From assembly GCF_019308285.1 (NCBI RefSeq), contig NZ_WWEM01000032.1, positions 1-64,000 on the forward strand: 64,000 nucleotides of DNA, written 5' to 3'. A model generated the notes under the pieces. It was not told where the DNA came from and did not search any database. It saw nothing but the letters and a program-made list of their open reading frames with translations. Below, in pieces: positions 46,124 to 58,346 of this stretch (the first letter of the stretch is position 1; the number at the start of each line of letters is the position of its first letter). The position numbers were made by a program, and so were the translations under genes. Origin of the DNA: Flavobacterium quisquiliarum. Its GTDB lineage: Bacteria; Bacteroidota; Bacteroidia; Flavobacteriales; Flavobacteriaceae.

Positions 46124-48280
46124 ATGGCAGCACAGTCTCATTTTTTTATAGAGCCTGGAGGATTTACACAAAGTGAGACACAAGCTTTTGGTCCCGTTTC
46201 GAGCACCAAGTTCAACCTCACTTCCAGATTCTCTTTAAGTTCTCCCCAAAAAGCCTATTCGATCTGTAAAGGCGTTGTTTTAGTACAACCTCAGGAAGAT
46301 CTGAATAATGGCAAAGTAAATTTAATTTTACGTCCTTACAAACAGCCCTTTCCGGGTTTAAACATCAAGTATTTTATTTATAGAGGATTGCGAAAAAGCG
46401 ATTTTTTTATAAAAGACGGCGAATACAAGGTAATAGCCGAAAGTGGTCAAACTTCTGATTTTATAACTAAGATCAATAAAGATTTTAATGCTTTTTACGA
46501 AGGAACTACAACTTTAACCAAACCAACTTTTAAAGCCAGTTTTATTGGTTACAATGAAGATCCTGTTCAACAAAATGCAGAAACTTCTCTTTCTAATCTT
46601 TTCTTTAAAGAATCTGAATTAAAAACAGTAGATAATACTACAACGGAAAATGATTCTTTTGAACTTCCGCTTATTGATAGCGGTGAAACGTTAGGTTATT
46701 TTGCGCAAGGCGAATGCGGTATTGATGTTGTCCTTAATTACGGCGACTACAAACATGAGTTTGACAACAGTGAATTTGTTTTCGATTTGGAATATGCCCG
46801 TAAACCTTTTGCAGAAATTACAGTAACTGGTGATACTGCATTTAAACAAAAATTAGAGCGTGAGCAAAGTACACAGTTTATTGATATTACTGCGTTTTAT
46901 GGCTCACATGTCGAAAATGGAGTTGTTAAAGCAACTGCTTCCGGAGTTCAAACCAACAAAAAAGGAACTGCAATTTTTAGTGATCTGCTCCATAATTTTT
47001 GGACCAAAAACCATTGGTACGTTTACATCCAGAGTGATAGAACCCGTAGTTACGATTTCTATGGAAACTACAAAATTGATGAAGGTCCAGAAAACCTAAA
47101 AACAGGTTTATTAGAAAATCCGACAACCAAAGTAGTCCCGATGACAGCGGAAATTTATGGCACTAAAGAATGGCCGGTTTTAATTAACAACCAAGAACAG
47201 GCCAATACGGTTACAACAAATAACCTCTACCTGCAATTTCCAACCGACAACAATAACAACACCGCTTTTTACGGACAGCTTGCTAAAGTGGCCAATGCGC
47301 AAAAAGACAATTTCATTAACGCAGATGGTTTACAACTGCCTCCAGATGAAGAAGGCAATTATGCCGACTTCACCTCAACAATACAATTGACAACTCCTGC
47401 AGTGGCTGGTAAAAATATTGCTTCTCTTAGTCTTTTGATGTATCAGGGAAAAGTGAATATGTATACTGCTGGAACAACATTAGATGAAAACGGAGATTTG
47501 GTCATTTTATACAGACAAGCCAACTATTTTGACAATGTTTTCAATTTAATCAAGACAAAACCTTTACTAAAATTGGGCAGTGACGAAAGTTATTCCAGAA
47601 TGACTTCTGAAAAACTAAATCTCGTTAATGAATTTTACGATAAAAAACAGCAGGGAATTTCGATTGTACAAACGCTTACAGTAAATGATAGTATTGAAAC
47701 TGGAATTGAAGAAACGCCAACAGTTGCACGAGTTACCTACATCACAGAAGCTATAGATGTTATGAACAATGCCGTTTCCGCAACTGGAAGCACTACACCA
47801 GATACTAAAACCACCGCTTCTGCCAGTGGTGCTGTAACTAAAAGTAAAACCTACCAGCTTCCTGATCCTTACTATTATAATTTAAAATTGTTTACAGACA
47901 GCACACAAACTATTACTGGTTTGGAGTTAAAAACTCTTGACGGCTCTACTCCCAATAAAATTATCCTGGGATTAACCAAAACCGAAAATGACGCCATAAA
48001 AGCATTAATTACAGATGACACAAAAAATCCTCGTTTGTTTTTGATTGATCTTTTTGAGGATGAAAACGAATTTGTTTCTCCTGAAGATGTTAAATATCAG
48101 AAATACAAAGTGGGTGTTGTGGCTGAAAATGCTGATGGTGACAATGTCTTGACAGAACCTGATGTTCCTGTTTTTGTTTACTCACTTGATAGAAGATATC
48201 ATTTTAGTAAGGAGTATAGTGAGTATATGCCTGATTTAGACATTAGCATTCCATTTTTTAATATTAATACCGTTTTATAA
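46124..48280 (+). CDS. Large beta-rich protein of the toxin locus, unknown
   Basis: The 718-residue soluble protein has no signal peptide or membrane segment. Its sequence is rich in short beta-type stretches (KVNLILRPYKQPFPGLNIKY, FAQGECGIDVVLNYGD, HWYVYIQSDRTRSYDFYG). A Thr/Ser/Ala-rich linker near residues 560-583 (SATGSTTPDTKTTASASGA) is followed by a compact tail. The stop codon directly adjoins the next start (48280/48281), so it is made together with the 1112-residue toxin. It may be a structural or carrier part that packages or delivers the toxin. No family is recognised. Confidence 0.6.
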   Translation: MAAQSHFFIEPGGFTQSETQAFGPVSSTKFNLTSRFSLSSPQKAYSICKGVVLVQPQEDLNNGKVNLILRPYKQPFPGLNIKYFIYRGLRKSDFFIKDGEYKVIAESGQTSDFITKINKDFNAFYEGTTTLTKPTFKASFIGYNEDPVQQNAETSLSNLFFKESELKTVDNTTTENDSFELPLIDSGETLGYFAQGECGIDVVLNYGDYKHEFDNSEFVFDLEYARKPFAEITVTGDTAFKQKLEREQSTQFIDITAFYGSHVENGVVKATASGVQTNKKGTAIFSDLLHNFWTKNHWYVYIQSDRTRSYDFYGNYKIDEGPENLKTGLLENPTTKVVPMTAEIYGTKEWPVLINNQEQANTVTTNNLYLQFPTDNNNNTAFYGQLAKVANAQKDNFINADGLQLPPDEEGNYADFTSTIQLTTPAVAGKNIASLSLLMYQGKVNMYTAGTTLDENGDLVILYRQANYFDNVFNLIKTKPLLKLGSDESYSRMTSEKLNLVNEFYDKKQQGISIVQTLTVNDSIETGIEETPTVARVTYITEAIDVMNNAVSATGSTTPDTKTTASASGAVTKSKTYQLPDPYYYNLKLFTDSTQTITGLELKTLDGSTPNKIILGLTKTENDAIKALITDDTKNPRLFLIDLFEDENEFVSPEDVKYQKYKVGVVAENADGDNVLTEPDVPVFVYSLDRRYHFSKEYSEYMPDLDISIPFFNINTVL

Positions 48281-51200
48281 ATGACTACTACCGCAATTCT
48301 AAAAGATGGAACTCCGGTAAGGATACATCTATTTGAAAAACCAGCTTTTGATGTCGAAGGCTTTTTAGTTGGTTTTACTTTATCCTCATTAAATTCAGAA
48401 GAATATAGATATTATCAACATTCTGAATTTAAAAGAGAGGATAGAAAAAAACCAAACCTATCGGGCTATTACGACAAAACAATGTTTTTAAAATACATTC
48501 AAAACGTTGAACCTGTTCCCACATTGGATAAATTGGTTAAATATAATTTTGAAAGGGTTCGAGCTACTGAAGGTGAAGAGATAACTGTCAGTACAATCGA
48601 TTTTGGGCAACCTTATGATTATTTCTATAACACTAAGAATTACACTTTTAATTTACAAAGTTCTCCTGACAAGAAGAGAGTTGGCAATTACTTAAAACCA
48701 ATTATAGAAAACTTTGAGGTAATTGATGAAAAAGTTAATTTAGACGGTATTGCTGGAGTCACTGTTTTGAATAATCAAGCCGGGTCACCTGGAGGAAATT
48801 TCTATAAAAAAAATCTTGGTGATTTAAATATAAATAATAGAGAAGTAAGCGACGCAATTAAAAGCAACTTTAAGAAAGTAATGTCCTTAATTATTTTCAG
48901 AATTAGAGAAATTGATAGAGATATTATTCCAATACTTGCATCACACACTCATTTTTTTGAAAAGGAAGAAAAAGTGGCTGATGGAATTATAGATTACAAT
49001 GATAATAATTCAGCTCAAGGATTTACTGATCTCGAAAAATTGCTATTTGATTTAAAAAGAGGCTGGGGTTATTACTATAATCCTAATACAGACATCCCTC
49101 TCCCTTTAAGAAATGATTTTGATGCTCAATTTTCTATCCAGTCTTCTTTTGCCGATTATGAAACATATTATTCTCACCTAACTAGCTTTTACACTAAATG
49201 TAATGCCACAAAGAATCTTGAATATTACCCTTCTGATAAAAAATTTCAATATTTACTAGAAATTTTACCTCCTTCTGCATTAAGCATTTTACCATTCAGT
49301 TATATTATTAATGCAATTAAAGGTTTATTAACAAAAAAACTAAAGCAAGACGAACAGCGTTTTTTAGTTAGACTCGTACTTTCAATAACTCCCTCACGCG
49401 CAAATGAGTTTTTAGATTTTTTATTAGAAAAAGAAAATGGTACTGAGACTAATTTTCAAGTTATCTACGATACGCTAACAGATGCAAGGCTAGAAAGATA
49501 CCCTTTTGTAAACTGGTTTGTTGATGAACAGCCTAATAGAAAATATTTTGCTTTTGCTATATACAAATTATGGAAAGTTTCTAAATATAATTTAGATTAT
49601 ATACGTCCTGGAATTGTTGTTCCTGATCTTTGGCCAAATTTCAAAGGAATTGACCCTGAAAACTATTTTTATATTAATCATAAGGAATTTAACGAAAAGA
49701 ACTGGTTAACATTTATTCCATCTACAACAGATAATGTAGTAACCACAGAACAATATTTTGAATCTAGATTGATTGATAAAAAAGTAGAAATAACTAAAAT
49801 CACAAAGTTAGATCACAATTTTGAACATGGCGGATTCCATCATGAAGATAAAAGTATATTTGGGTTATTTCATCTTTATCAACAAGTTACTTTTTCGGGA
49901 TATAAAGCTAATCTTGACCTATCAATTCCAACAACAGCGACTTTACCCGCTTTTCTTTTTCATTTTATTAAGGAATACGATGATCTGGCAGATTTTGATG
50001 CTGGAGTTGCACTAGCCATTAATATAACTGCTGATGTTTTGCTAATTTACTTTACAGGTGGCGCAAATGTATTAAGAGATCTACAGTACCTAAAATATAC
50101 TACTAAAATTGGAAGAGCTTTACAAGGAAGCTTAAATGGTGTTGAAGCTGTTGAAGTTTGGAGAGGACTAGAAGTTGGAAGTGAAATTTTTACTGTCACT
50201 ACTGGTGAATTAGCACATATTAACCAATATTTAATAACAACCGAAAATGATGAACAAAAAAGAAAAATTCTAGAAAAAAACCAGAAGGTTCTACTCAATC
50301 TTATGCTATTGGGAGTAACATCATCTATCACAGCAAGATCAAATGCTGTTAAGGAAGCTGAAGAAGCATTACGCTTAATCGATAATTTACCAGTTAATAC
50401 TCCTCATGGAATTCCTCCGCCAATGATTAATGTTTTAACAACCTTAAAAGGACAAAAAGCTGTAACACTATCTTTATTTGGAAACAAATTAAACAACCTA
50501 GAACTTGGTGGAGTCGCAAATACAATTGTGGCAAAATATAATATGCTTTTTACTGATGCTCAAAGACTAAAATTCTGGAATGATTTTCAACACATTGATG
50601 ATCCTGTATTCTGGGAATTACTAAATAGTGGTAGAGGAGCTGACGGTTTACTTAATGGCAGTTATATTAACAATTGGATTGATTTAAGCGAAAGAGGTTT
50701 ACAAGAAGCTAAATTTACTGATTATATTTGTGTTCAAAGACGAACTGATGGTCTAATTCGTTTTACTGACCAAAACAATTTAAAGCCTATTGTACAATCT
50801 TTAAATTTTGAGAAAAAAGTTTTTTTTGTAGATAAATATGGATCCATAGAAAACTTTAATGATTTTAAATTTAATAAATGTATTCAACAACCAAAAAAAT
50901 TAGAATTATTAACTGAATCAGGAAATTTTTTAAAAAGAGGACAATTAGATGAGCTGTTGGAAGAAGATATATTAAAAATTATTGAAAGCAATTTGAGTAA
51001 TGCTCATATTGATTTATTAAGAATAAAAAATAAAAATAATCTAGGACAAATCGTTTTTAACTTTGAAAAAGATATTGCAAATATCAATTTAGATTTAAAT
51101 AGGCTACGAGCGTTAAGAGATGGAACAGCCTTTTCTTTTATGCAAGATCTTAATTTAACTACAAAGCAGATTAAAGATTTTCAATCTGCAAATAAGTTAT

Positions 51201-51619
51201 TTGTCGAGACAAAAATTTATAATAATGCTAATTTAATTAATACTTTTAATGACATTTATATCTCTGGTTGGAAAAATTTTGTGGGAAGCATTTTTAACAA
51301 CAATATTCCAAATAGTATTATTGAACCTGGAAACAATGCAAACTTTAATATTTTTAAGCAAAAAGCTATTGATATTATAAATAAGAAGAAAAGATATGAT
51401 GATACTGAGCTAAAATATATATTTAATTTTTTAGAAAAACATTGGGATAAAGGTAATCGTTTTGAAATAACTATGGAAAGTACCTATTATTCATGTCAAA
51501 GTTGTCAAGGTTATATGTTATATTTAAAACAGTTAGCCAAACAGGAAGGAAAAGTTTTAAATATTACCATAAAATCAAGTACTGACGCCAAAGATTATAA
51601 GACATTAGAAAGACTATAA
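48281..51619 (+). CDS. Polymorphic toxin with C-terminal deaminase-like domain
   Basis: The 1112-residue protein lacks a signal peptide. The N-terminal 550 residues are a large delivery region of unknown family, followed by two hydrophobic stretches near residues 569-597 and 669-687. The C-terminal domain from about 1030 shows DDTELKYIFNFL (Asp1041-Thr-Glu1043) and then YYSCQSCQGYM with CxxC at Cys1072 and Cys1075. This pattern, DTE on the first helix and CxxC on the second after a strand, is that of polymorphic-toxin cytidine/adenosine deaminase domains. An Asp replaces the usual His zinc ligand. The next gene encodes a SUKH immunity protein, which fits a toxin-immunity pair. Toxin identity as deaminase is a motif-based inference. 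Confidence 0.75.
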   Translation: MTTTAILKDGTPVRIHLFEKPAFDVEGFLVGFTLSSLNSEEYRYYQHSEFKREDRKKPNLSGYYDKTMFLKYIQNVEPVPTLDKLVKYNFERVRATEGEEITVSTIDFGQPYDYFYNTKNYTFNLQSSPDKKRVGNYLKPIIENFEVIDEKVNLDGIAGVTVLNNQAGSPGGNFYKKNLGDLNINNREVSDAIKSNFKKVMSLIIFRIREIDRDIIPILASHTHFFEKEEKVADGIIDYNDNNSAQGFTDLEKLLFDLKRGWGYYYNPNTDIPLPLRNDFDAQFSIQSSFADYETYYSHLTSFYTKCNATKNLEYYPSDKKFQYLLEILPPSALSILPFSYIINAIKGLLTKKLKQDEQRFLVRLVLSITPSRANEFLDFLLEKENGTETNFQVIYDTLTDARLERYPFVNWFVDEQPNRKYFAFAIYKLWKVSKYNLDYIRPGIVVPDLWPNFKGIDPENYFYINHKEFNEKNWLTFIPSTTDNVVTTEQYFESRLIDKKVEITKITKLDHNFEHGGFHHEDKSIFGLFHLYQQVTFSGYKANLDLSIPTTATLPAFLFHFIKEYDDLADFDAGVALAINITADVLLIYFTGGANVLRDLQYLKYTTKIGRALQGSLNGVEAVEVWRGLEVGSEIFTVTTGELAHINQYLITTENDEQKRKILEKNQKVLLNLMLLGVTSSITARSNAVKEAEEALRLIDNLPVNTPHGIPPPMINVLTTLKGQKAVTLSLFGNKLNNLELGGVANTIVAKYNMLFTDAQRLKFWNDFQHIDDPVFWELLNSGRGADGLLNGSYINNWIDLSERGLQEAKFTDYICVQRRTDGLIRFTDQNNLKPIVQSLNFEKKVFFVDKYGSIENFNDFKFNKCIQQPKKLELLTESGNFLKRGQLDELLEEDILKIIESNLSNAHIDLLRIKNKNNLGQIVFNFEKDIANINLDLNRLRALRDGTAFSFMQDLNLTTKQIKDFQSANKLFVETKIYNNANLINTFNDIYISGWKNFVGSIFNNNIPNSIIEPGNNANFNIFKQKAIDIINKKKRYDDTELKYIFNFLEKHWDKGNRFEITMESTYYSCQSCQGYMLYLKQLAKQEGKVLNITIKSSTDAKDYKTLERL

Positions 51620-51633
51620 AATAATTAAACATT

Positions 51634-52113
51634 ATGACTATAAAATATTTACAACAATTAAAAAACAATCCAATCGCATATTCTAAAAATAATAAAGAAC
51701 TTCAATTTAAAATAGAAGGAATTCCTGAATCAGAAATTCAACAATTAGAATTAGTATGGAACAATGGTGATGTTTTCCCTAAGGTTTTAAAAGAACTATT
51801 GTTTTTAGCAGGTAATTTTTGTTATGTCTGTGATTATGGGCCTAATAATAATCAACAAGAAATGCAGGAATGGGTAAGAGAGCATATGAAAGATAATAAT
51901 CGTTCAATAAATCGTCCTTTTTTTGCCTTTGATGTATATGGAGGCGATACTTTTTTGTTTATCTATTTAGATGAAGGAGATAATCCTACTGTTTTTGAAG
52001 CTAAACCATATTCTGATGACAATAATTGGATTGATACATTGGCACCACAAACGATACAAAGTATTATAAATATAGGGATTAACAGAGTTAAAATAGGGCA
52101 AAATCCATATTAA
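51634..52113 (+). CDS. SUKH (SMI1/KNR4) family immunity protein
   Basis: The 159-residue soluble protein matches the SUKH pattern. An N-terminal helix (ESEIQQLELVWNNGDVFPKV) is followed by LKELLFLAGNFCYV, then RPFFAFDVYGGDTFLFIYLD and EGDNPTVFEA. SUKH proteins are the most frequent immunity proteins of polymorphic toxins and bind the cognate toxin domain. It lies 14 nt after the deaminase-like toxin and so should neutralise it. A paralogue is encoded at 53326-53799, deeper in the cassette array. Confidence 0.85.
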   Translation: MTIKYLQQLKNNPIAYSKNNKELQFKIEGIPESEIQQLELVWNNGDVFPKVLKELLFLAGNFCYVCDYGPNNNQQEMQEWVREHMKDNNRSINRPFFAFDVYGGDTFLFIYLDEGDNPTVFEAKPYSDDNNWIDTLAPQTIQSIINIGINRVKIGQNPY

Positions 52114-52524
52114 AATAATTTACCTGATCGCACAGATATACCCGATCTATTAACTTCTGACGATGTTATAGAATTTTTGAAAACAGGTCCAACCAAAAAT
52201 GATATTGGAGTTCGAATTGAGACACAAAGATTGAATTGGAGTACTTCAATGAGAATGTATCAAGAAAACATTTCATTTAAAGGAATGTCTATTCAAGAAC
52301 TTTCAGATTTTCATAGTCTTTTTAAAGATTATTTTAGAAGTGATAAAGAGAAACTTAATAGTTATCTTAAAAGTAATAGAGCGAGAATTAAAATTAACTG
52401 TTATAACAATTCCGAATTAATTGAGCCAACAATTGTAGAGTTTTATATTTCAGGAACCCCAGAATCATTTGTAGAATTATTCAAAGATGTCCCTGATGAG
52501 ATCAGTGAAATGTTTATTCAAACT
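52114..52524 (+). pseudogene. Orphan cassette fragment cut by a REP repeat
   Basis: Directly after the SUKH stop, in the same frame, a protein-like sequence runs for about 137 codons (SFVELFKDVPDEISEMFIQT near its end). It then passes into REP-repeat DNA at 52526, where the reading frame becomes repeat-derived. A TTG start at 52177 would be the only translation start. It is best read as a piece of a toxin or immunity gene truncated by the REP element. The first 30 nt resemble the second repeat family (GATCGCACAGAT). Confidence 0.55.
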
Positions 52525-52525
52525 T

Positions 52526-52560
52526 CCCCCGCTAGCGCGAGCGTCTCGCTCGTGAACGCA
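52526..52560. repeat. REP-like palindrome, solo copy
   Basis: The sequence contains CGAGCG-TCT-CGCTCG, a 6-bp stem with 3-nt loop, set in the longer consensus CCCCGCTAGCG...GTGAACGC. It matches the left boundary of the RAYT elements, but no transposase gene follows directly. It lies 66 bp before a second copy that does precede a RAYT gene. Confidence 0.85.
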
Positions 52561-52694: not shown

Positions 52695-53243
52695 ATGAGC
52701 AGGAAATACAAATTTGGAGATAAAACTGGAGCATACTTTATAAGTTTTGCTACGGTTTACTGGATAGATGTTTTTACTAGAGAAGAGTATTTTGGGAGGA
52801 TTGTAGAATCATTAGATTACTGCAGAAAAAATAAAGGAATGGAGATTTATGGATATTGCATAATGCCAAGTCACGTCCATTTAATTTTCAGATCTGAAAA
52901 TGGAGACCCTTCTGGTCTAATAAGAGATTTCAAAGGTTTTACCTCGAGAAAAATGCTCAAAGCAATTGAAGAAAATCCGCAAGAAAGCAGAAAAGAATGG
53001 ATGCTCTGGATGTTTGAAAGAGCCGGAAAGAAAAACAGCAATGTAAAATTCAGGCAATTTTGGCAGCAAAACAACAAACCCATCGAAATCTGGTCTTTTA
53101 AAGTTTTTGAGCAAAAATTAAATTATATTCATAACAACCCGATCGAGAGTGGTTTTGTTACCAATCCTGTGGATTGGAAATACAGCTCTGCTAGAAATTA
53201 TGGTGATAACGATCAGACTGTCCTAGAAATTGATATTAATTGA
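52695..53243 (+). CDS. REP-associated tyrosine transposase (RAYT), copy 1
   Basis: The 182-residue protein is a single-domain Y1/HUH transposase of the IS200-related RAYT group. The metal-binding HUH motif is IMPSHVHLIF with His60 and His62. The catalytic Tyr144 is in KLNYIHNNPIESGFV. RAYTs cut and move single-stranded REP palindromes. The gene is flanked by inverted REP-like palindromes (52628-52663 and 53245-53285), a complete element. Three further copies lie downstream, over 90 percent identical by eye, showing recent spread. A RAYT protein acting in trans on all REP copies is expected. Confidence 0.93.
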   Translation: MSRKYKFGDKTGAYFISFATVYWIDVFTREEYFGRIVESLDYCRKNKGMEIYGYCIMPSHVHLIFRSENGDPSGLIRDFKGFTSRKMLKAIEENPQESRKEWMLWMFERAGKKNSNVKFRQFWQQNNKPIEIWSFKVFEQKLNYIHNNPIESGFVTNPVDWKYSSARNYGDNDQTVLEIDIN

Positions 53244-53285: not shown

Positions 53286-53329
53286 CAATTGACACTGGAA
53301 TAGTAAGAACTTTAAAACAACAACTATGA
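53286..53329 (+). pseudogene. Decapitated toxin tail before immunity gene 2
   Basis: Immediately right of the REP end a frame encodes a 14-residue tail (AIDTGIVRTLKQQL) and stops with TGA that overlaps the ATG of the SUKH gene (ATGA). A toxin gene whose main part was removed by the RAYT insertion would leave exactly such a remnant. The sequence is short, so the call rests on position and overlap. Confidence 0.45.
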
Positions 53330-53799
53330 ATATAGACATTTTGACCTATTTAAGAGATAATCCTATTAAATACGGTAAATCGATGAATTTTGAGATAAAA
53401 GGTATTTCTCTTAATGAAATACAACAATTAGAACAATTATATAATAATGGAGTACAATTCCCAAAGGCTTTAAGAGAGCTTCTTTACTTAGGAGGTGATT
53501 TTTGCTATGTTTTAGCAAAAGGCATTTATGATACTCAGCAAGAAATGCAAGAAATTTCCAGAGAAAAATTACTTGAATTCAATAAAAATATAGTAAGACC
53601 TTTTTTTGTCATTGACGTTTATAACTCATCTGAACAATTTTTATTTGTGTATTTAGATGAAGGTGATAATCCATATGTTTATCAAGCTTATTTACCAACA
53701 TTAGATTACCTTCCTCCTATTACAAATTTAGACAGGAAATTATCTGAATATATTAATCTCCTTATTGACAAAGTAAAAAAAGGCCATAATCCTTTCTAA
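53326..53799 (+). CDS. SUKH family immunity protein, paralogue 2
   Basis: The 157-residue protein is clearly related to the immunity protein at 51634-52113: LNEIQQLEQLYNNGVQFPKA, LRELLYLGGDFCYV and VYLDEGDNPYVYQA align with it across the full length. It lacks its own complete toxin gene; only a 14-residue toxin tail precedes it. Such orphan immunity genes are typical of cassette arrays and protect against sibling toxins. The left REP of RAYT element 2 starts 5 nt after its stop. Confidence 0.85.
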   Translation: MNIDILTYLRDNPIKYGKSMNFEIKGISLNEIQQLEQLYNNGVQFPKALRELLYLGGDFCYVLAKGIYDTQQEMQEISREKLLEFNKNIVRPFFVIDVYNSSEQFLFVYLDEGDNPYVYQAYLPTLDYLPPITNLDRKLSEYINLLIDKVKKGHNPF

Positions 53800-56902: not shown

Positions 56903-57394
56903 ATGGGAAATACAAGAGTCAAGATTTTTGAATTAAATGATCAAGAGTTAACATTTGATTTTGGCACATATGCCTTATTAATGTATTATGCCAAACAAAT
57001 AGATCCAATTAAAGGAAAAAAATTAATAAATGCAACAATATCTGAATGGAGTTATAGAATTGAAAATGGAATTCAATTGGATAATATTACAAATGATAAT
57101 AATATGGTACATTTTATTATTTCAGAAATCAATACTGTTATATCTTTTATTGATTCTGAATTAATTCCTAATTTAAGTAATGAACCACAAAATTTAATTA
57201 CAAAATATGGTGGAGAATCTAATTTTGTCAATTTGTATGATAACAATCTAGATTATCTAAAAGTTTTATGTTTTACTAAAGATGAATTCTTTGATGGTGA
57301 TACTCATCAACTAATATTCTTATTAAATGAACTTAAACTTTTTTTTCAATATGCTATAAATCAAAACCAACCTTTTAAAGTGTATGTATATTGA
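56903..57394 (+). CDS. Immunity-type protein, family 2, copy a
   Basis: The 163-residue soluble protein (FDFGTYALLMYYAKQIDPIK, then LITKYGGESNFVNLYDNN) immediately follows the headless toxin module, with the start overlapping its stop. It has a homologue directly downstream (57509-58000) with matching TISEWSYR/TISEWKYR and YGGESNFV/YGGKSNFV. Composition is acidic and it lacks any signal, as expected for cytoplasmic immunity. No named immunity family is recognised, so the role rests on context. Confidence 0.7.
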   Translation: MGNTRVKIFELNDQELTFDFGTYALLMYYAKQIDPIKGKKLINATISEWSYRIENGIQLDNITNDNNMVHFIISEINTVISFIDSELIPNLSNEPQNLITKYGGESNFVNLYDNNLDYLKVLCFTKDEFFDGDTHQLIFLLNELKLFFQYAINQNQPFKVYVY

Positions 57395-57508: not shown

Positions 57509-58000
57509 ATGAGAAAAACGAGAGCAATATATTTTGAATACAACGGTATTGTAGAGCATTTCGATTTTGGCACATTTTCATTATGTATGTATTATGCTAC
57601 ATTAATAAATTGTTTAAAGGCAAAAAAATTGTTTGAAGCTACTATTTCAGAATGGAAATATAGAGTTGAATATGATTTACCTGAAGACAATTTCACATCT
57701 GATGATGATATTGCACACTTTGAAATCTCGGAAATAACAGAAGCAATTGAATTTATTGAAGACATTTTAATTCCTTCTTTAAACAACGAAACAAAAGATA
57801 TCTTATTGAAATATGGCGGGAAATCAAATTTCGTAAAACTATATTATAATAATGCTGGGTTTCTAAAATTTAATGGAATTACTGAGAATGAGTTTTTTGA
57901 AACTAAAGGCGAATCTTTAGCATATCACATGAATAGATTAAAAATAATATTGCAATATTCTTTAGATTTTAGTCAACCATTTATGGTTTATGTAAACTAA
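57509..58000 (+). CDS. Immunity-type protein, family 2, copy b
   Basis: The 163-residue protein is a full-length paralogue of the preceding immunity gene: FDFGTFSLCMYYATLINCLK, FEATISEWKYRVEYDL and LLKYGGKSNFVKLYYNN align throughout. It is preceded only by a toxin-tail remnant. The divergence between the pair (roughly half of positions by eye) suggests they protect against different toxin variants. REP DNA begins 9 nt after the stop. Confidence 0.7.
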   Translation: MRKTRAIYFEYNGIVEHFDFGTFSLCMYYATLINCLKAKKLFEATISEWKYRVEYDLPEDNFTSDDDIAHFEISEITEAIEFIEDILIPSLNNETKDILLKYGGKSNFVKLYYNNAGFLKFNGITENEFFETKGESLAYHMNRLKIILQYSLDFSQPFMVYVN

Positions 58001-58102: not shown

Positions 58103-58240
58103 ATGAGCAGAAAATACAAATTTAGAGAAAAAACTGGAGCCTACTTTATAAGTTTTGCTACAGTTTACTGGATAGATGTTTTTACAAGAGAAGAGTATTT
58201 TGGCAATATTGTAGAGTCATTAGATTACTGCAGAAAGAAC
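58103..58240 (+). pseudogene. Truncated RAYT, copy 4
   Basis: The first 46 codons match the RAYT start (FREKTGAYFISFATVYWIDV, then IVESLDYCRKN). At about 58240 the frame runs into second-family repeat DNA and stops. The HUH and tyrosine motifs are lost and no right REP follows. It is a dead element whose 3' part was replaced by the repeat. Confidence 0.9.
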
Positions 58241-58346
58241 CCCGATCTCTCAGATTTATCTCTGCAACGATAGCGCGGATTTGCAACCCGATCGCGCAGA
58301 TTTGTCCCCGCAACGATAGCGCGGATTTGCAATCCGTGCCCGCAAA
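58240..58346. repeat. Second interspersed repeat family (tandem remnants)
   Basis: Two tandem units share GATC(T/G)C(T/G)CAGATTT, then GCAACGATAGCGCGGATTTGCAA. The second unit ends in AATCCGTGCCCGC, so GGATT-TGC-AATCC forms a small hairpin. The same family appears at 52607, 55778 and 58009 and, weakly, at 52122. It is a separate repeat from the REP palindrome. Confidence 0.75.

Follow-up and report, generated by a model that had tools for sequence, protein, structure and literature searches.

A predicted deaminase-fold toxin domain with aspartate in its first active-site motif and a SUKH-type neighbour in Flavobacterium quisquiliarum

The C-terminal 144 residues of a 1112-aa protein of Flavobacterium quisquiliarum are best read as a zinc-dependent Tox-Deaminase toxin closest to PF14424, borne on a polymorphic-toxin carrier and neutralised by the SUKH protein whose gene begins 14 nt further on. 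We give this reading a probability of about 0.8. The gene lies in a stretch of 64,000 nucleotides (contig NZ_WWEM01000032.1, hereafter the window), and its features and those of its neighbours are listed in Table 1. Our computations showed a predicted deaminase fold, conserved Asp/Glu and Cys/Cys residues, reuse of the domain on different carriers, and a fixed SUKH neighbour. On the other side stand a PF14424 match under the cut-off, 13 of 22 aligned rows without such a match, weak Foldseek E values, a profile-profile probability of 43.6%, and a modelled core of four strands.

Table 1. Coordinates in the window of the toxin gene, its motifs, and the neighbouring genes
Feature	Position	Strand	Basis or remark
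1112-aa toxin protein	48281..51619	+	Open frame; carrier (about residues 1-960) and C-terminal deaminase-fold domain
Deaminase-fold toxin domain, residues 969-1112	51185..51616	+	22-row alignment, AlphaFold, Foldseek, VIA-align, weak PF14424 match
Asp1041-Thr1042-Glu1043, first active-site motif	51401..51409	+	Position read; Asp and Glu in 22/22 rows
Cys1072-Gln-Ser-Cys1075, second active-site motif	51494..51505	+	Both Cys in 22/22 rows, Ser in 21/22
SUKH-type immunity protein, 159 aa	51634..52113	+	Homologues directly downstream of the toxin in 21/21 loci; SUKH-1 in aligned relatives
Second SUKH-type protein, 157 aa	53326..53799	+	Pfam SMI1_KNR4, E 0.00023, under cut-off
718-aa protein, probable partner	46124..48280	+	Directly upstream of the carrier; homologue likewise in 6/6 carrier-sharing loci

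An earlier note on this DNA, made from the sequence, had placed a deaminase-like toxin domain at 51395-51616. That stretch holds both motifs, and they lie where the note had put them: DDTEL starts at residue 1040 (nt 51398), hence Asp1041 and Glu1043, and CQSC occupies residues 1072-1075. The extent had to be revised, as the stretch has 74 codons and not 75 and covers just the second half of the domain; in an alignment of 22 rows (the window domain and 21 loci, L027-L047, found by the nine-row scans described below), relatives align from about residue 969. The pattern [HCD]xE, 20-40 residues, CxxC occurred in one of the 66 frames of at least 100 codons in the window (18,500 residues), namely the 48281-51619 protein; shuffling the last 144 residues of the toxin 100,000 times produced it 49 times. 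A chance motif was rejected on this rarity in frames and shuffles together with the Foldseek matches.

The AlphaFold model of the domain, built with the 22-row alignment, had a pLDDT of 88.8 and a pTM of 0.83. Its strands are at 4-13, 16-26, 92-99, and 124-130 (domain numbering), and its helices at 30-36, 51-58, 74-85, 105-120, and 138-143. Four strands were thus modelled and the fifth of the canonical deaminase core was unseen; the protein ends 14 residues past the last strand. The zinc motifs of deaminases sit at the starts of two active-site helices. In the model, Asp73 (D1041) comes directly before helix 74-85 and Cys104 (C1072) directly before helix 105-120. The fold predicted is that of a deaminase, with the motifs at two helix starts, in agreement with what had been proposed from the sequence, and from this placement the Asp/Glu and the Cys pair would lie close to each other at a zinc site.

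Foldseek returned 584 PDB matches at E 10 or better and none at 0.001 or better; the best 50 of the 584 were all APOBEC/AID or DddB (E 0.0044-0.056, TM about 0.4-0.55). By VIA-align of the 1000 top chains, which carries its own caveat that a Z under 8 can reflect a common arrangement, seven chains had a Z of at least 8. The best was APOBEC3H (Z 8.9, 95 residues, rmsd 3.8), and values were also obtained for DddB (Z 8.1, 97 residues, rmsd 3.2) and, under that threshold, for the DYW domain (Z 7.0, 102 residues, rmsd 3.9). As far as a predicted model can tell, the weight of the VIA-align result lies in the agreement of the listed rows on one fold. Searching the PDB by sequence gave no relative with an alignment of four and nothing credible otherwise; complement C5 (hmmsearch, E 0.0029, one chain) matched in two short stretches, each weak, and was taken as chance.

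These values leave a little room for a small CxxC domain that does not have the deaminase fold and resembles it by chance, which we consider highly improbable. Such a domain would fit the modest Foldseek E values (0.0044-0.056 among the matches listed) and the sole NCBIfam match, to a thioredoxin-like CxxC family (E 0.0092, 15.7 of 65 bits). It would not explain why the best 50 of the 584 Foldseek matches all have the deaminase fold, nor the agreement of motif order, helix positions, and PF14424 likeness.

A protein search of 299 genomes of the window's family gave matches at E 0.01 in 15 genomes, of which four were true: the window's own, G195, G179, and G122. None of the 11 weak matches (L006-L016, E 3e-4 to 8e-3) was counted; the three that were opened (L006, L012, and L014) were frames without the domain, and eight were left unopened. 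With a four-row profile, eight of the 395 genomes of the window's order were matched, and six, the window's included, had both motifs. L024, from the order search, had the second half of the domain alone, without the DxE half, and was not counted, and L025 (E 4e-4, internal stop) was dropped as unrelated on inspection. Two further loci stayed outside the counts: the second copy in G195 (L017), which is broken and reads VSE with an in-frame stop after CTSC, and G864 (E 8.7e-5, four internal stops), which was unopened. The only other PF14424 "hit" in the window's genome (L026, 24.2 bits, under the cut-off) was also dropped; the printed part of its frame resembles a site-specific recombinase with a zinc ribbon. 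The family and order searches, which do not depend on the Asp, together gave nine domains with both motifs, and all nine had D[ST]E.

Scans with a nine-row alignment detected 20 loci in the species-genome collection and one in the viral collection. The peptide pattern used in these scans contained D[ST]E, so that the Asp is present in 21 of 21 loci by construction, and the set overlaps that of the family and order searches (e.g., L034/G195, L041/G179, and L046/G122 are the same genomes). D73, E75, C104, and C107 (domain numbering) were invariant in the 22 rows, 21 of which had been preselected for D[ST]E, and R70 and S106 were kept in 21 of 22. The rows span several Bacteroidota genera and different carriers; the C-terminal 170 residues of Flavobacterium sp. 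SH_e (L028) are the same as those of L023, a locus from a genome of the window's genus. No relative was found in phages and plasmids searched with the window domain, or in plasmids searched with the domain of one relative. Viral contigs gave none with the single window protein, none with the L054 domain (see below), and one with the alignment.

In Pfam, the window domain matched PF14424 best (E 0.0012), as the earlier note had suggested, with 19.4 bits and thus under the cut-off of 29.6. At E 0.1 or better, nine of the 22 rows matched this family and 13 did not; when ten rows, mostly of the second carrier types, were scanned singly against Pfam, one matched PF14424 (20.8 bits). Given this poor coverage, annotation pipelines will often miss the group. 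A true member of PF14424 is present in a genome of the window's genus (L054, 50.2 bits) and has RTGDSE and CASC. Its tblastn relatives in plasmid and phage records were six, of which five were opened. Four of these had the domain in one frame (Flammeovirga, Moraxella, Paraburkholderia, and a phage minor head protein), and the fifth, from Bergeyella, was split over two frames and had DSE. L054 and the four passed the PF14424 cut-off with scores of 52 to 114.5 bits, and the Asp was present in 5/5. The motif derived from these five members, RxxD[ST]E followed by CxSC, is present in the window domain; one of the five has DGE and not D[ST]E. When the profile of the window's group was compared with that of the five, R, D, E, C, S, and C were aligned (E 0.00024, probability 43.6%). 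From sequence, all five members end shortly past the part that corresponds to the last strand. Judged by sequence, the window's group appears to be an under-annotated Bacteroidota branch near PF14424, with a predicted activity. As a separate observation, the minor head protein of Terrisporobacter phage TVCOM_ph1 (L059 1-1213) ends in a PF14424 domain (83.1 bits, HIDGE and CESC) and is directly followed by a small gene; it is a candidate toxin on a phage head protein.

The note had pointed to Asp in place of the usual first zinc ligand. Asp1041 is indeed present, and it is not odd: it is the rule in the window's group. We regard it as the normal residue of this group because it occurs in 5/5 PF14424 members and because the 2012 polymorphic-toxin survey prints the Tox-Deaminase signature as "[HCD]xE, CxxC" (PMC3482391). 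For the sce3516-like group, the same survey has "H[occasionally D]xE" and SUKH immunity, and it names BURPS668_1122 deaminases as SUKH partners, so that the Asp, as part of a motif, has already been published. Asp is not a zinc ligand in the two characterised toxin structures described in PMC7901873, and broken copies exist, such as the one with VSE and a stop in another genome. Both would suit a domain in which the Asp does not hold zinc and catalysis has been lost; its action would then be binding, or it would be an inert module that the immunity gene maintains. We find this improbable, since dead domains would drift, whereas D, E, C, and C were found in 22/22 rows across genera and carriers and in 5/5 PF14424 members. 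The deaminase-like toxin domain of the earlier note is supported by the deaminase-fold model, the agreement of Foldseek and VIA-align, the conservation of D, E, C, and C, and the likeness to PF14424.

The gene at 51634-52113 starts 14 nt past the toxin stop. Each of the 21 loci (L027-L047) has a homologue of the 51634-52113 protein as the following same-strand frame, which overlaps the toxin or lies at most 61 nt away; this agrees with the note's view that the adjacent SUKH gene supports toxin status. This protein itself had no Pfam SUKH match. SUKH-1 was matched at E 0.1 or better by 10 of the 18 proteins in the alignment of its homologues, and two of ten relatives scanned singly were over the SUKH-1 cut-off. 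The second SUKH-type protein (53326-53799) is 50% identical to it. At E 0.001, the 6.17 Mb genome had only two members of this SUKH group, both within 2.2 kb of the toxin. Toxin deaminases have been paired with SUKH proteins in print (PMC3482391), and a deaminase-SUKH pairing also appears in PMC10469887, as a prediction only.

Between 52526 and 58334, the window has three near-identical IS200-like transposase genes (at 52695, 53874, and 55881; 97% identical), which we take to be of the RAYT type. These genes, a transposase fragment (58103-58249), and a 39-nt GC-rich repeat in five copies are interspersed with the immunity genes. The only other relative of these transposases in the genome is 46% identical (contig C4), and the transposase-immunity array is seemingly confined to this toxin locus; a relative of the transposase also occurs upstream of a toxin fragment in L022/L038. 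Two paralogous 163-aa genes of the array (56903-57394 and 57509-58000) have no Pfam match over the cut-off and are candidate immunity genes. Just after the first SUKH gene, 52162-52525 may be what is left of the C-terminus of another toxin, cut off at the start of the 39-nt repeat: a profile of the first half of the domain matched 52351-52527 (E 2e-4), but blastp to the window toxin gave E 0.11.

When 17 relatives were compared with the window protein by blastp, leaving out four loci with short frames, six shared the carrier sequence and 11 just the C-terminal part. Such sharing of one C-terminal domain by different carriers is typical of polymorphic toxins. No match to a secretion or delivery domain was found for the full 1112-aa protein in Pfam, NCBIfam, or PHROGs. 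The 718-aa protein encoded directly upstream, the probable partner, matched no Pfam family above the cut-off and nothing in PHROGs, and its structure model was unusable (pLDDT 39.1).

Near the toxin-SUKH pair are a CHAP endolysin, a DUF3164 gene, tail-fibre-like genes, and two giant frames (2482 and 2242 codons), of which the former begins inside the window. These surroundings look like a phage-derived unit. The giant frames are at about 61.3-75.5 kb of genome contig C26 (L060 1280-15470), and the second has a VWA domain; they are followed by tail-fibre and tail-assembly-chaperone-like genes, in an odd phage-like or delivery-like cluster. The sheath family PF04984 was not found in the genome and was positive in 3 of 14 control genomes. 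The search for PF06841 matched in no genome at all and was hence uninformative.

The zinc-ligand and proton-moving roles of the active-site residues follow the chemistry of the deaminase superfamily. Accepting the zinc-dependent deaminase as the best reading, Asp1041, Cys1072, and Cys1075 would hold one zinc ion, with Glu1043 serving as proton shuttle during hydrolytic deamination. The enzyme would deaminate a base in a rival cell, and the SUKH protein would bind and block the domain in the producer cell. By analogy, the most likely substrate is cytosine in nucleic acid, for which we see somewhat better than even chances. This preference has two grounds: cytosine in nucleic acid is where toxins of measured activity act (PMC7901873), and the structurally closest proteins are deaminases of that substrate. 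The same two points weigh against a domain with this fold and zinc site that acts on a free nucleotide, on adenine, or on another amino-bearing molecule: the measured toxins edit cytosine in DNA (PMC7901873), and the closest solved folds are again of the nucleic-acid cytosine type. We nevertheless hold such a substrate to be quite possible, if not the expected one. The available parts of the open-licence literature report no activity for the window's group, the Asp ligand and the short core are unlike the measured DddA/SsdA type, and adenosine deaminase activity has been guessed for a PF14424-type effector (PMC10469887).

In a wider reading, which we offer tentatively and consider rather doubtful, these Bacteroidota toxins would form a group that combines an Asp-Cys-Cys zinc site with a shortened deaminase core of four strands and that departs in chemistry or substrate from the deaminase toxins measured to date. 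The carrier, the 718-aa partner, and the phage-like lysis and fibre genes would then form an undescribed delivery unit.

The window domain leaves the known map of toxin families unchanged. Mutation of cytosines in DNA has been demonstrated for members of three interbacterial deaminase toxin types (PMC7901873), and base-editor development has started from DddA and SsdA (PMC10442228, PMC11789416). In the open-licence literature, as far as its available parts go, no measured activity was found for any toxin deaminase with DxE. Being compact (144 aa), with a conserved Asp ligand and an immunity gene next to it, the window domain would be suited to testing what the first zinc ligand does.

Among known systems, APOBEC/AID proteins are the best-ranked solved folds, but they are eukaryotic and share 9-19% identity over the matched parts among the matches listed. 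TANFOR proteins are likewise Bacteroidota polymorphic toxins, and a figure legend names Tox-deaminase and SUKH-1 (PMC7073777); the 1112-aa protein differs in having no NCBIfam match, TANFOR included. DddB (BaDTF3), DddA (BaDTF1), and SsdA (BaDTF2) are, like the window domain by its model, deaminase-fold interbacterial toxins. They are measured cytosine deaminases (PMC7901873), whereas the activity of the window domain is predicted. SsdA holds zinc by His and Cys and has an all-helical immunity protein (PMC7901873), in contrast to the Asp and the SUKH protein of the window. The Tox-Deaminase of the sce3516-like group (Zhang et al., 2012), compared by its description, shares H[occasionally D]xE, CxxC, and Imm-SUKH, but is printed for Actinobacteria and Proteobacteria and usually has HAE (PMC3482391). 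The closest system is PF14424 (the BURPS668_1122 family). The window domain reaches 19.4 of its 29.6 bits, and 13/22 of the group have no match at E 0.1, but both have RxxD[ST]E and then CxSC, both end soon after the last shared strand, and SUKH immunity is in print for the family (PMC3482391, PMC10469887).
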